NCBI GenBank assembly: GCA_019637095.1
Contig: JAHBWG010000011.1
Location: forward strand, 1 to 64,000
DNA: 64,000 nt
Direction of reading: 5' to 3'
DNA from: Sandaracinaceae bacterium
GTDB lineage: Bacteria; Myxococcota_A; Polyangia; Polyangiales; Sandaracinaceae
Shown: positions 48,886 to 53,552 of the stretch, in pieces
Numbering within the stretch: position 1 is the first letter of the stretch
Layout of the letters: every line of letters begins with the position of its first letter
Notes under the pieces: model-generated
Seen by the model: the letters and a program-made list of their open reading frames with translations, nothing else
Told to the model about the DNA's origin: nothing
The model's database searches: none
Translations under genes and position numbers: made by a program

Positions 48886-51349
48886 CTACTCCGATCGCTT
48901 GGAGACCCATGTCGTCCCCGTTCCGTAGGTGCGCAACGCGTACAAGCGCGTGCCAATTCCGCCGGACTGGAAGTCGGAGTAAAGGGTGATCTGTGTTCCG
49001 GCTAGCCCACCCTCGACTTCCGTGACCCGCGTCCATTGGCCGGGTCGATACGTGCATCCCGCCGTCGTCGAGCACAGCGACGAGTACCGGATCGCGCCGG
49101 TGCTGGTGCGCCCCGCGACGTGGAGGCGCTGCTGGGCCACGTGAGCGGTGGGAGTCCCCGCGAGTGATGGCGCACCCCCTTGGTCAGGTGCAACCGGCCC
49201 GGTCCAGGACGTCCCGGTCGAGGACCAGACGTAGCGCAGGTTCGCGGCCCCCGTACCGCCGCGATAGAAGACGTAGATGCGACCGCCGTACGCCGCAGCG
49301 GCCGGGCCGCCGCTGGAGAGGCTCGCGCCCGGGACGGTGCTCGGCGCTGTCCATGAGGTCCCGTTCCAGCGGACGTATCTCAGTGCCGACGTCGCTACGC
49401 TGCGATAGAAAACGTAGAGCTGCCCGCCGAAGAACACGGCGCTCACGTCGTCCCACGGGTCGACGCTGGAGGAGGGGACGACGCTGACCGGATCCCACCC
49501 GCCGGTCGTGTTGGAGCGGTAGTGGACGATCGAGCTGTTGAGGTCGTAACGGAACACGAGGTGCGACACGCCCCCCGACGTCGCGATGCTTGGGTTGCCG
49601 CCTGCCCAGTGGATATGCGTCGGCGTCGACCAGGCGTTCCCACTGCCGAGCGTCCCGAGGCGGCGTCGCTGAAGCAGCTCGTTCGTCCCGGTGTTGGTGC
49701 GGAACACCGCAGCGGTGTACGAGCTGCCGCCGATCGCGAGCGTCGTGAGCGCCACCTGATTATGGGTGAACAACGGCTCGGTGTAGGGCCCCGTCCACAT
49801 CCCCACCGCGTCGATGGCGTCGCGGGCACGCTGGTACCGGACGTCGTACTCGCCCCATCGCCAGAACGCAGCGTAGCGCCACACCCACGCGAAGTCGAAG
49901 TAGTCGTCGGTCGGCAGAAGCCAGAAGTTCTCGATGTCGTAGAGCAGCGTGTCGGCGTCGTTCCCAATTCCCGTGACAGGGAGCCCCGCGAAGCTCACGG
50001 ATCCCGCGCTCGATGGGCGGCCTACGAGGAATCCTGCCTTTCCGACGACCTGACCGTCGGCGTGAAAGCTCCCCGCAAATCCGCCGAGGTTCGAAAGATG
50101 CGCCGGCCCGAGGCTCGCGCAGCCCGTGCAGCCCTCCGGGTCGACGAGGCTGCGAATGGGCGCACAGGCTCCGGTCCCCATCACCCAATCCGGTCCTCCG
50201 ACCGAGTGTCGCTCGATCAGCTCGCCGAAGATGTCACTCAGGCCCTCGCCGAGCGCCAGCTGCTGGTATCCCGAGCCCCAGCCGATGTCGACCTCCTGCA
50301 CGCCATGGGTGAACTCGTGACCGATGATGTCGGTACAGGCTTGATCGCTGCCCGTCATCACCGAGTGCATCATCTGCCCAAGCCACGCGTTCTCGGGCCA
50401 CCACTGCGTGCCACCCGAGGGCCACACGTCGGCGACGATGCGCATTCGGTGCGTAGTACTGGATGGGTTGTCGTCCCACCCATCGCGACCGTGGCGGGTG
50501 TCGCAGTAGACCCGGGTGTAGTGGGTGGCGTACATTGTCTGGAGCGTCGTACCCGGCCACGAGCCCGAGAAGAAGTAGGGGGCGCTGGCGTGGATGAGCT
50601 GATAGTCGGGCGGGGGTGGGCTCGTCAGGACGACATGGTCCGCCCAGCGCGTCTCCCGGACGTCGTGCCTCATCGCCGTACTGCGGGCGTCGATCGGCTC
50701 GCCGGTCGACGCATCCACGATCACCTCCGCGGGGCCGTCCGAGCCGAAGGCCGCGATGCGGTACGCGACGCGCGGGCGCTCACCAGGCCTGGCAACGACG
50801 ACGAGTTCCGGCTCGTCCACGAGGGGCGGAGCGTCCGCCAGCCCCCGGGCGACGAGCAGGGCCGCGGCGGCGGCGACGACATCGTCCCGGGGCAACAGCG
50901 GCCCCTCTGGCTCCGGCGGATCCGGGACGAGGTTCCCCCGCGCCGCGATCAAATCACCAGTGGGGTCGAGGAACACGCCCAGGCCGTGGTCCAGGACGGG
51001 GATGCCATGATCACGGGTCCGCTGCCGGAACACGACCCGCGAGCCCGACGCATGCACTCGCGTATCGCGCAACTCGAGCTCCGCGGCGGGGTCTCGGAGG
51101 CCAAGAGCGCGCCGTGCCGGGCGAGCCACGCTTCGTGGCCGCGGGCGTCCGGTGCGAAGCGGGCCCCGGCGATGGCGCGGAGCCGGCCGTCGCTCGTCAA
51201 GCGGACGACGGGCGGGCTGCCTGGCTCTCGCGCTTCCAGGGTACCCACGAAGCTTTCGACGTCGGGTCTCCACGACTCGGTGACGCTGCCGCCGCCCGCT
51301 GCGACCGGTTCATCGATGGGCGCGGCGCACGACACCGCCATGCCCGCTA
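48886..51349 (-). pseudogene. M4-family metallopeptidase gene, main part (frameshifted, split by IS630)
   Basis: Most of a thermolysin-type zinc peptidase: a propeptide (FTP/PepSY-like), catalytic domain with HEFTH in 'DIIGHEFTHGVQEVD', the third zinc ligand in EGLSDIFGE and the active-site His in GSFHADGQVVG, then a C-terminal beta-propeller/lectin-like part with repeated YVFYRGG/LRYVxW units. All zinc residues are present. Two lesions interrupt it. The first is an IS630-family element in the signal-peptide codons. The second is a single-base loss near 51103, after ARHGALL, that moves LGLRDPAAELELRD into another frame. The true start is ATG 52920, beyond the element. Confidence 0.82.
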
Positions 51350-51384
51350 GTACCCCCGGCCCAAGGTTCGATCCGGGTTTCGTG
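51347..51384 (+). repeat. IS630 left terminal inverted repeat with target TA
   Basis: Begins CTAGTACCCCCG and ends near CGGGTTTCG. It pairs with the complement of the right end with only scattered mismatches. Confidence 0.82.
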
Positions 51385-51398
51385 AATATCTCGGCCGC

Positions 51399-52520
51399 GT
51401 GCTCGATCGGATCGTCGTGGCACGTGGCCCCGCGCCCGAGCCGCTGCGCATGTCGCGGCGGATGTATCGCGAGTTGAAGAAGCTCGTGCGGCGTCATCGT
51501 GCGCCGGCCGCGGTGGTCCAGAGAGCTCGGGCGTTGCTGCTGGCGCGGTCGGGTCATGGGACCGTGGAGATCGCGCGCCGCCTCGGGTGCTCGAGCCGGA
51601 ACGTGCGGAAGTGGAAGGCGCGCTTCCGCGCGAGCCCGACGCTCGCAGCCCTCGATGACGCACCGCGGTGCGGTCGGCCGGCGTCCGTGCCGAGGTGGGT
51701 CCGGTGCACGCTCGTGCAGCTCGCCTGCGACCGTCCGGAGGGGATTTTCACGCCGTTCCGCGAGGTCTGGACTCGGCAGTCGCTCGCCGACGAGCTCGCG
51801 CGCGTGACCGGCCACCGGCTCAGCGTCAGCGAGGTCGGGCGCATCCTGCGCAACGCCGAGCTTCGACCCCACCGCTTGCGGCAGTGGTTGCACAGCCCCG
51901 ACCCGGACTTCGAGGCCAAGGCGAAGCGGGTGTGCGAGCTGTACCTGAACCCTCCGCCGGGCGCCGTCGTCCTCTGCATCGACGAGAAGCCGATGCAGGT
52001 GCTCGAGCGCATCCACCCCACCCATGTCGACCCGCTGACCGGCCGGGTCCGTTTCGAGTTCGAGTACAAGCGGCACGGTGTGCAGCACCTGCTCGCGGCC
52101 TTCGACATCCGCACGGGGCGCGTGGTGGCGCGCATCGTGGCCAAGCGCACCGCCGAGGCGACGGTGTCGTTCATGAACGAGGTCGCACGTCGCTACCGCG
52201 GGCGCGAGGTCTACGTCGTCTGGGACAACCTCAACACGCACTGCGACGGCAAGACCGTGCAGCGGTGGCAGGACTTCAACGAGCGCCACGGCGGGCGGTT
52301 CCACTTCGTGTACACGCCCAAGCACGCGTCGTGGATGAACCAGGTCGAGATCTGGTTCTCCATCCTGCACCGCAGAGTGCTCCAGCACGGCGACTTCGCG
52401 ACGAAGCAGCGCCAGCGCCTGCAGGTCGAAGCCTTCGTCCGGCACTGGAACCGTGTCGAGCGACACCCGTTCCGATGGACGTGGAGAGTCCCCGAGCGGC
52501 AAGATCGGCGCGCCGCCTGA
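51399..52520 (+). CDS. IS630-family DDE transposase
   Basis: A 373-residue transposase. N-terminal HTH (about 40-75, 'TVEIARRLGCSSRNVRKWKA'), a second winged-helix region (about 125-160), then the DDE catalytic core: D195 in LCIDEKP, D276 in VVWDNLNTH and E317 in WMNQVEIWF. The last two match the family's DN-NTH and NxxEIWFS signatures. It starts at GTG 51399; ATG 51450 is possible. Seven bp after its stop a second small gene starts within the same element. Confidence 0.93.
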   Translation: MLDRIVVARGPAPEPLRMSRRMYRELKKLVRRHRAPAAVVQRARALLLARSGHGTVEIARRLGCSSRNVRKWKARFRASPTLAALDDAPRCGRPASVPRWVRCTLVQLACDRPEGIFTPFREVWTRQSLADELARVTGHRLSVSEVGRILRNAELRPHRLRQWLHSPDPDFEAKAKRVCELYLNPPPGAVVLCIDEKPMQVLERIHPTHVDPLTGRVRFEFEYKRHGVQHLLAAFDIRTGRVVARIVAKRTAEATVSFMNEVARRYRGREVYVVWDNLNTHCDGKTVQRWQDFNERHGGRFHFVYTPKHASWMNQVEIWFSILHRRVLQHGDFATKQRQRLQVEAFVRHWNRVERHPFRWTWRVPERQDRRAA

Positions 52521-52527
52521 GCGCGCC

Positions 52528-52842
52528 ATGCCCAAACAGCACGCCGAAACCTGGGACGTCTCCGCCGTCGAGAAGCGCCTCCACGACCGCGGCCTGACGC
52601 ACCTGCGCGTCCGCAAGCACGGCGCCGCGGTCATCGTCGAGTCGGGCCCCGCCGACAACCCCTGGAAGCACTTCCGGCTACGCCGCGACACCGTCCACCT
52701 CTGGTGGCTCGACATGGCCAGCCGAGGCTCGCGGTGGGACCGGACGCCGTTCCGCGACCTGCGCGACAACCTCATCGACATGGTCATCGAGCAATTCCCG
52801 TGGACGCTCACCGACGTCCTCGGAAACCCGGAACGGACTTAG
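52528..52842 (+). CDS. Accessory ORF inside the IS630 element, unknown
   Basis: A 104-residue protein from ATG 52528, ending 12 bp before the right end of the element. The sequence is compact, with aromatic and charged blocks (WDVSAVEKRLHDRGLTHLRV, HFRLRRDTVHLWWLDMASRG, 'DLRDNLIDMVIEQFPWTLTD'), so it is a plausible folded protein and not a shadow frame. I recognise no family. Classical IS630 elements carry only the transposase. It could be a passenger or a regulator of transposition. Confidence 0.6.
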   Translation: MPKQHAETWDVSAVEKRLHDRGLTHLRVRKHGAAVIVESGPADNPWKHFRLRRDTVHLWWLDMASRGSRWDRTPFRDLRDNLIDMVIEQFPWTLTDVLGNPERT

Positions 52843-52857
52843 GATCGGGGGTACTAG
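52820..52857 (-). repeat. IS630 right terminal inverted repeat with target TA
   Basis: Read inward (minus strand) it begins CTAGTACCCCCG and includes CCGGGTTTC, matching the left end at the first 12 positions and most of the next 23. Confidence 0.82.
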
Positions 52858-52920
52858 GAGGCTCAGAGCGAGAGAGAGAGAGAGAGAGAGAGGTATGTGT
52901 GTGTGTGTGTGACGAGTCAT
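52857..52920 (-). pseudogene. 5' end of the M4 peptidase gene, cut off by the IS
   Basis: From ATG 52920 the minus strand reads MTRHTHTHIP then LSLSLSLALSL, and continues across the excised element into LAGMAVSCAAP at 51346 in the same frame, since the removed 1507 bp include one TA. The join gives a normal signal peptide: short basic n-region, hydrophobic core, and a Cys that may be lipidated. The core is written by alternating CTC and TCT codons of the microsatellite. Confidence 0.7.
52871..52911 (+). repeat. Microsatellite (AG)11 - GTA - (TG)8
   Basis: Eleven AG units (52871-52892), GTA, then eight TG units (52896-52911). On the minus strand it encodes HTHTH and LSLSLS of the M4 peptidase signal peptide. 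Di-nucleotide tracts of this length are exceptional in so G/C-rich a genome and can slip during replication. Confidence 0.9.
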
Positions 52921-53139
52921 CGCAGTTCCCCCCGAGGCGGCCAACCCGGCTACCACCGTAGCTGCGAGACGGACCAGGAATCAAGGACGCCGGTACGGTT
53001 CGTGGAGCGAGCTCTGCGCCCGAGCACACGCCGCCATGATCGGTGGGATCGCACTGGAAGACTTCTGCCCTCGCGTTAGGTAGGTGCGGTTACCGCGGGC
53101 TCGCGACGCTGCACCGCCGTGCGCACGGCTTCGGTCGAC

Positions 53140-53552
53140 ACGCCGCCGCCCGCGGCCGGCGACGCAGGACATCCCGCCCGCGCGTTCGACGCGTTCGACG
53201 TGCCGTAGTGCTTCGCCATGGGCGGCCCTACGCGCTGCCCGGCTGCACGCACTCCGCGTTCACGCACATCCATCACGTGACGCCGCGGAGCGAGTGCGGG
53301 ACGCGCGACCCGGAGCGGCTGGTGCCGGTGTGCACGAGCCACCACCTCGCGGCGCACCGCGGTGCGCTCTTCGTGCGCGGTAGCTTCAGCGGGGGCTTTC
53401 GGTTCTTCCACGCGGATGGGCGGCCTTTCGTCGGTCCGAGCGGCTCGTCGTTGCGCACCGTGCCCGACGAGTCCGACGTGATCGTCGCCGCCGACTGGAT
53501 CGTCGACCTCGGCCCGGAGGGCGGCGAGGGCGGGCCCGCCTTCCGCGCCTGA
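53140..53552 (+). pseudogene. Remnant of an HNH endonuclease-domain gene
   Basis: The C-terminal HNH core is intact from about 53200: CTHSAFTHIHHVTPRSECG, RDPERLVPVCTSHHLAAHRG and the following 'GGFRFFHADGRPFVGPSG'. The preceding conserved part is in another frame (TQDIPPA) and the N-terminal domain is missing. So it is a frameshifted, 5'-truncated member of the HNH proteins that are multi-copy in myxobacteria. The CxxC/H-H-N metal site remains but no full gene is left. Confidence 0.65.

Follow-up and report, generated by a model that had tools for sequence, protein, structure and literature searches.

Two adjacent dinucleotide tracts in the window (the whole 64,000-nucleotide stretch of Sandaracinaceae DNA analysed here) are quite likely what is left of a lipoprotein signal peptide prone to slippage, whose gene is now broken by an IS630 insertion and a frameshift. 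In the history that we propose, an ancestral gene would have run in one frame from a Shine-Dalgarno (SD) sequence and ATG through (CA)8, (CT)11.5 and a lipobox into an M4-like peptidase, its tracts being prone to slippage. An IS630 element would have inserted at a CTAG site lying after the hydrophobic core and before the lipobox, the propeptide would have been frameshifted, and the tract would have been left as a relic. The locus is a lead to a probable class of such putative switches in Myxococcota. The broader proposition, that lipoproteins and secreted proteins with a (CT)n Leu/Ser-core switch form a dispersed phase-variable class across this phylum, with the window locus as an IS630-frozen casualty of it, we regard as about evenly balanced.

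The longer tract is a perfect 23-base run, (GA)11.5, at 52870-52892, which on the minus strand reads as (CT)n and encodes a Leu/Ser hydrophobic core. The second is a 16-base run, (TG)8, at 52896-52911, which on the same strand reads as (CA)8 and encodes a His/Thr n-region. The minus-strand reading of the two tracts, with His/Thr first and Leu/Ser after (MTRHTHTHIPLSLSLSLALSLL), bears out the description in an earlier note on this DNA of (AG)11 and (TG)8 tracts translated as Leu/Ser and His/Thr. The G+C content across the window is 68-81% in 2-kb steps, and a scan of all 9,253,515 bases of the genome (197 contigs) recovered 52870-52892 as the sole (AG)n tract of at least seven units and 52896-52911 as the sole (TG)n tract of at least six units. 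Because they are unique in a genome of this size, both tracts are far above chance expectation. An ordinary genome-wide microsatellite was also considered and rejected for this genome, as no second such tract is present.

To model the ancestral gene, the two flanks of the insertion were joined with a single TA retained. This yields MTRHTHTHIPLSLSLSLALSLLAGMAVSC, a lipobox-containing lipoprotein signal that reads in frame into the peptidase propeptide; the joined open frame begins MTRHTHTHIPLSLSLSLALSLLAGMAVSCAAPIDEPVAAGGGSVTESWRPDV... and is also quoted in a shorter form, MTRHTHTHIPLSLSLSLALSLLAGMAVSCAAPIDEPVAAGGG... The joined sequence displays each of the elements expected of a lipoprotein signal, namely a basic n-region (with one Arg), a CT-coded hydrophobic Leu/Ser core (hydropathy peak 2.33), and a lipobox before the Cys, with the pattern LSLLAGMAVSC. 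The severed rest of this signal, AGMAVSC, is found at 51327-51347 on the minus strand, the lipobox Cys codon being 51327-51329. Thus, the minus-strand order before the insertion was SD, ATG, (CA)8, TACC, (CT)11.5, lipobox and M4-like propeptide, all in one frame. The earlier reading of the tract as the signal of an M4 peptidase therefore applies to the gene before the insertion, whereas at present a 1,505-bp IS630-type element intervenes; the coding role had been seen rightly for the ancestor, but the insertion had been overlooked.

When unit changes were modelled on the joined sequence, the addition or removal of 1 or 2 units in either tract led to the wrong frame and an early stop, and a change of 3 units in either direction kept the signal and altered its length alone. 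The frame arithmetic of the earlier note is hence right for the joined ancestor at both tracts. In the ancestral gene, gain or loss of 1-2 units would have resulted in an early stop, and a change of 3 units in a longer or shorter His/Thr or Leu/Ser stretch. The joined flanks also present the first hallmark of a contingency locus, a non-triplet repeat in the 5' coding region. The further hallmark, an intact switchable gene downstream, is lacking owing to the IS630 insertion and the frameshift, and for this reason we do not class the window locus as a working contingency locus.

The best-known examples of repeat switches in signal peptides are those of host-adapted pathogens, e.g. Helicobacter and Neisseria. 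In the Helicobacter pylori oipA (hopH) gene, CT repeats in the signal-peptide coding region set the frame and result in phase variation (PMC10564699). The window gene resembles oipA in having CT dinucleotides in the 5' signal-coding part, where a unit change shifts the frame. However, the oipA product sits in the outer membrane of a pathogen adapted to its host, whereas the window gene encodes a lipoprotein-type metallopeptidase of a member of the Polyangiales with a 9.25-Mb genome, is broken by IS630, and is only a putative former switch. The Neisseria opa (P.II) genes likewise possess repeats in the signal-coding region, which turn translation on and off (PMC3899988), but the repeat unit is a pentanucleotide (CTCTT) and the products are outer membrane adhesins. 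Neisseria pilC, as described in PMC13190605, undergoes slipped-strand mispairing of a poly-G tract in the signal-coding region; this slippage tract is comparable in location, but it is mononucleotide and the product is a pilus tip protein. A search of the open-licence literature recovered no report of repeat-driven phase variation in Myxococcota, which is weak as evidence; its single hit was the account of Neisseria pilC.

We surveyed comparable tracts in other Myxococcota. In the order to which the source organism belongs (184 genomes), (CT)n tracts of at least seven units are rare per genome. About 12 of the 90 distinct order-wide tracts encode signal-peptide cores (e.g. MRSFPRALALSLSLGALGCG, MRLSLSLVAAFTLLTAAPDARAQ and MGRARALSLSLFLSALALSPGARAA), a count that depends on reading the frames by hand, and in none of the start-near frames on the opposite strand does the tract fall within a signal core. 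Across the phylum, the pattern SD-ATG-(CT)7 was encountered in 13 genes from 10 of 379 genomes, with the CT read as Leu-Ser. Of two control patterns, the reversed one turned up at 2 places, and the one with AG substituted for CT at 2 places in 341 genomes. These 13 genes and the G089 gene from the order survey were used to count phases (n=14), with the downstream frame taken as the one that has the (Leu-Ser)n core together with either a lipobox or the end of a signal, and the relatives' start codons assigned from SD and ATG alone. Relative to the downstream frame with an intact (Leu-Ser)n core, 5 of the 14 are in frame and 9 are out of frame, which roughly matches the two-thirds out of frame predicted by random two-base slippage; one short in-frame case (G212) had its phase set by its lipobox, two out-of-frame cases (G260 C193 and G095 C17) lie near contig ends with their downstream frames visible in part only, and several out-of-frame alleles come from draft assemblies, where indel errors are possible. 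A further candidate, L026/L133 of G032, was left out of the phase count, since an ATG just past its tract may be the start. In the out-of-frame genes the open frame still spans several hundred codons, the longest having 1148.

Differences in unit number were found both between homologues and between copies. A ~950-residue HEYHHH-type protein is encoded by two copies in G102, in frame with a 17-bp tract. Its G051 homologue carries one additional unit and lies out of frame, and the tract is kept though fourfold-degenerate sites outside it are only 42-44% identical between the two. An order-wide search with the G051 protein recovered homologues in G102, G095 and G097; the G095 homologue, at 44% protein identity, retains a CT tract, though interrupted, along with the bases after it; the tract of a second G095 copy, on contig C17, is longer and out of frame. 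An equivalent search with the G025 protein recovered only itself and one partial copy. In the single assembly of G260, the near-identical leaders on C193 and C194 (L158 and L162) are exactly one CT unit apart, the two copies in G306 are two units apart, and the near-identical upstream regions on C21 and C45 of G032 (L133:2389-2422 and L149) have CT tracts 34 bp and 26 bp long. Near-identical copies in the relatives thus differ by 1, 2 or 4 units, and there is good evidence, on comparison of these sequences, that whole-unit slippage of such tracts occurs in their lineages.

Two additional observations concern these relatives. The G032 tracts on C21 and C45 precede a Cys-rich lipoprotein, the true start of which may follow the tract. 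A family of exported proteins that are ~950 residues long and share the motif AHEYHHHxQES (L128:1948-4809, L129:1896-4757, L130:826-3660 and L138) contains members with (CT)n signal peptides in differing phases; a Pfam search with this family gave no match.

Taken together, the approximately 1:2 ratio of in-frame to out-of-frame phases, the mostly long open frames and the whole-unit differences between copies lead us to infer that similar tracts may function as reversible on/off switches in the phylum. The switch suggested by the earlier note thus gains from other Myxococcota, where (CT)n signals are seen in either phase and with unit numbers that vary between copies, but not from the window gene itself, which is broken. 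Alternatively, the tract may reflect selection for a Leu/Ser core along with neutral slippage and may never have been a switch, with the out-of-frame relatives being decaying or misassembled genes. Composition would favor the presence of about 12 of the 90 order-wide tracts in signal cores, the window gene is indeed broken, and the tracts are rare per genome. Nevertheless, such a history accounts poorly for the survival of perfect CT runs between homologues with just 42-44% identity at fourfold sites, for out-of-frame genes with such long open frames, and for whole-unit copy differences amid near-identical flanks; we consider it rather unlikely. Were reversible switching to operate in Myxococcota, it would imply cell-to-cell variation in exported proteins that could be readable as repeat-unit counts in sequencing reads.

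The element that separates the tract from the peptidase is an IS630-family insertion element of 1505 bp, on the plus strand at 51350-52854, with imperfect terminal inverted repeats (GTACCCCCGG.../GTACCCCCGA...). It is flanked by a duplicated TA, at 51348-51349 on the peptidase side and 52855-52856 on the tract side, from the target C^TA^G. The transposase ORF (51399-52520, plus strand; start codon uncertain) matches NF033545 at 208.7 bits (cut-off 100) and contains a DDE_3 domain. Downstream of it, and inside the element by the copy boundaries, is a plus-strand passenger ORF of 104 aa (MPKQHAETWDVSAVEKRLHDRG..., 52528-52842), for which a Pfam search gave no match. The 1,510-base stretch 51348-52857 has three further full copies in the genome that are 100% identical, with one at a contig end, and there is one additional copy of the element at 94% identity; the identity of the copies suggests that the element moved recently. 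The copies start with GTACCCCCGG and finish with GGGGGTAC, forming imperfect inverted repeats, with TA within CTAG on both flanks. The agreement of the copy ends with the TA/CTAG flanks fixes the element at 51350-52854, a length of 1,505 bp, and shows that TA was duplicated. In its transposase, inverted repeats and TA duplication it is like a typical member of the IS630 (IS630/Tc1/mariner) family, from which it differs in the passenger ORF of no assigned function. We also rejected the notion that the tract is a piece of this element, because the flanks of the other copies carry no dinucleotide tract.

Beyond the element lies the M4-like metallopeptidase body (48886-51273, minus strand), in which the HExxH and ExxSD motifs of the thermolysin (M4) family are present as HEFTH and EGLSD. 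PF02868 (M4_C) is matched with 26.0 bits, just above the cut-off of 24.4, and PF01447 with 16.8 bits, below the cut-off of 22.4. Judged by these motifs and matches, the peptidase is a divergent M4-like member. Searches for orthologues recovered only weak matches (27-36% identity) in 57 related genomes; the GTDB contig collection yielded no match, and neither set contained an orthologue with an intact signal. By eye, the C-terminal part of the M4-like region (48889-49800) shows repeated VFYR/YVFYRS motifs that resemble a lectin-like β-propeller. In the propeptide region there is an apparent frameshift at 51100-51115 on the minus strand, where both the frame and the codon-position GC change; the frame switch, near 51105 and ~75 codons beyond the lipobox, coincides with the change in codon-position GC. 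This could be a second lesion or an assembly indel.

An assembly error might also be envisaged for the IS junction itself, with a repeated element threaded through a gene that is in reality intact. The several identical copies, of which one lies at a contig end, and the difficulty that an exact 1.5-kb repeat poses for short reads are compatible with such an error. Yet, the duplication is a canonical TA in CTAG, and the flanks join into a single open frame with a complete lipoprotein signal, on which grounds we hold that the flanks belong together; furthermore, the gene also carries the second lesion. We therefore consider misassembly improbable and return to the reading of a gene disrupted by the element. 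As this gene is cut by IS630 and frameshifted, the peptidase is beyond switching by any unit change, and the possibility raised earlier that a unit change could switch it does not apply to the present locus. The window tract is a relic without a switching role today, and the locus mainly illustrates how such a gene may end, with a mobile element inside its signal peptide.

What remains of the 5' end of the lipoprotein/M4 gene extends over 52855-52920 on the minus strand, with its ATG at 52918-52920, and codes for MTRHTHTHIPLSLSLSLALSLL up to the insertion. A G-rich, SD-like stretch, GGGGGGAA, at 52926-52933 on the minus strand and 5 bases before the ATG, is the predicted ribosome-binding site. 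From this ATG the present frame runs for 80 codons into the IS element, where it meets a stop; it starts MTRHTHTHIPLSLSLSLALSLLVPPILS and is without the lipobox, which the insertion removed. It is highly improbable that the tract still switches something else, such as this truncated 80-codon signal ORF, for its frame (MTRHTHTHIPLSLSLSLALSLLVPPILS...) does stay open, but it has no lipobox, its end is the antisense of the IS passenger ORF, and nothing points to a conserved product. The region 53043-53552, upstream of the severed signal, has a weak, sub-threshold HNH-like match (PF01844, 18.8 bits; cut-off 21.4), which is possibly a 5'-truncated remnant.
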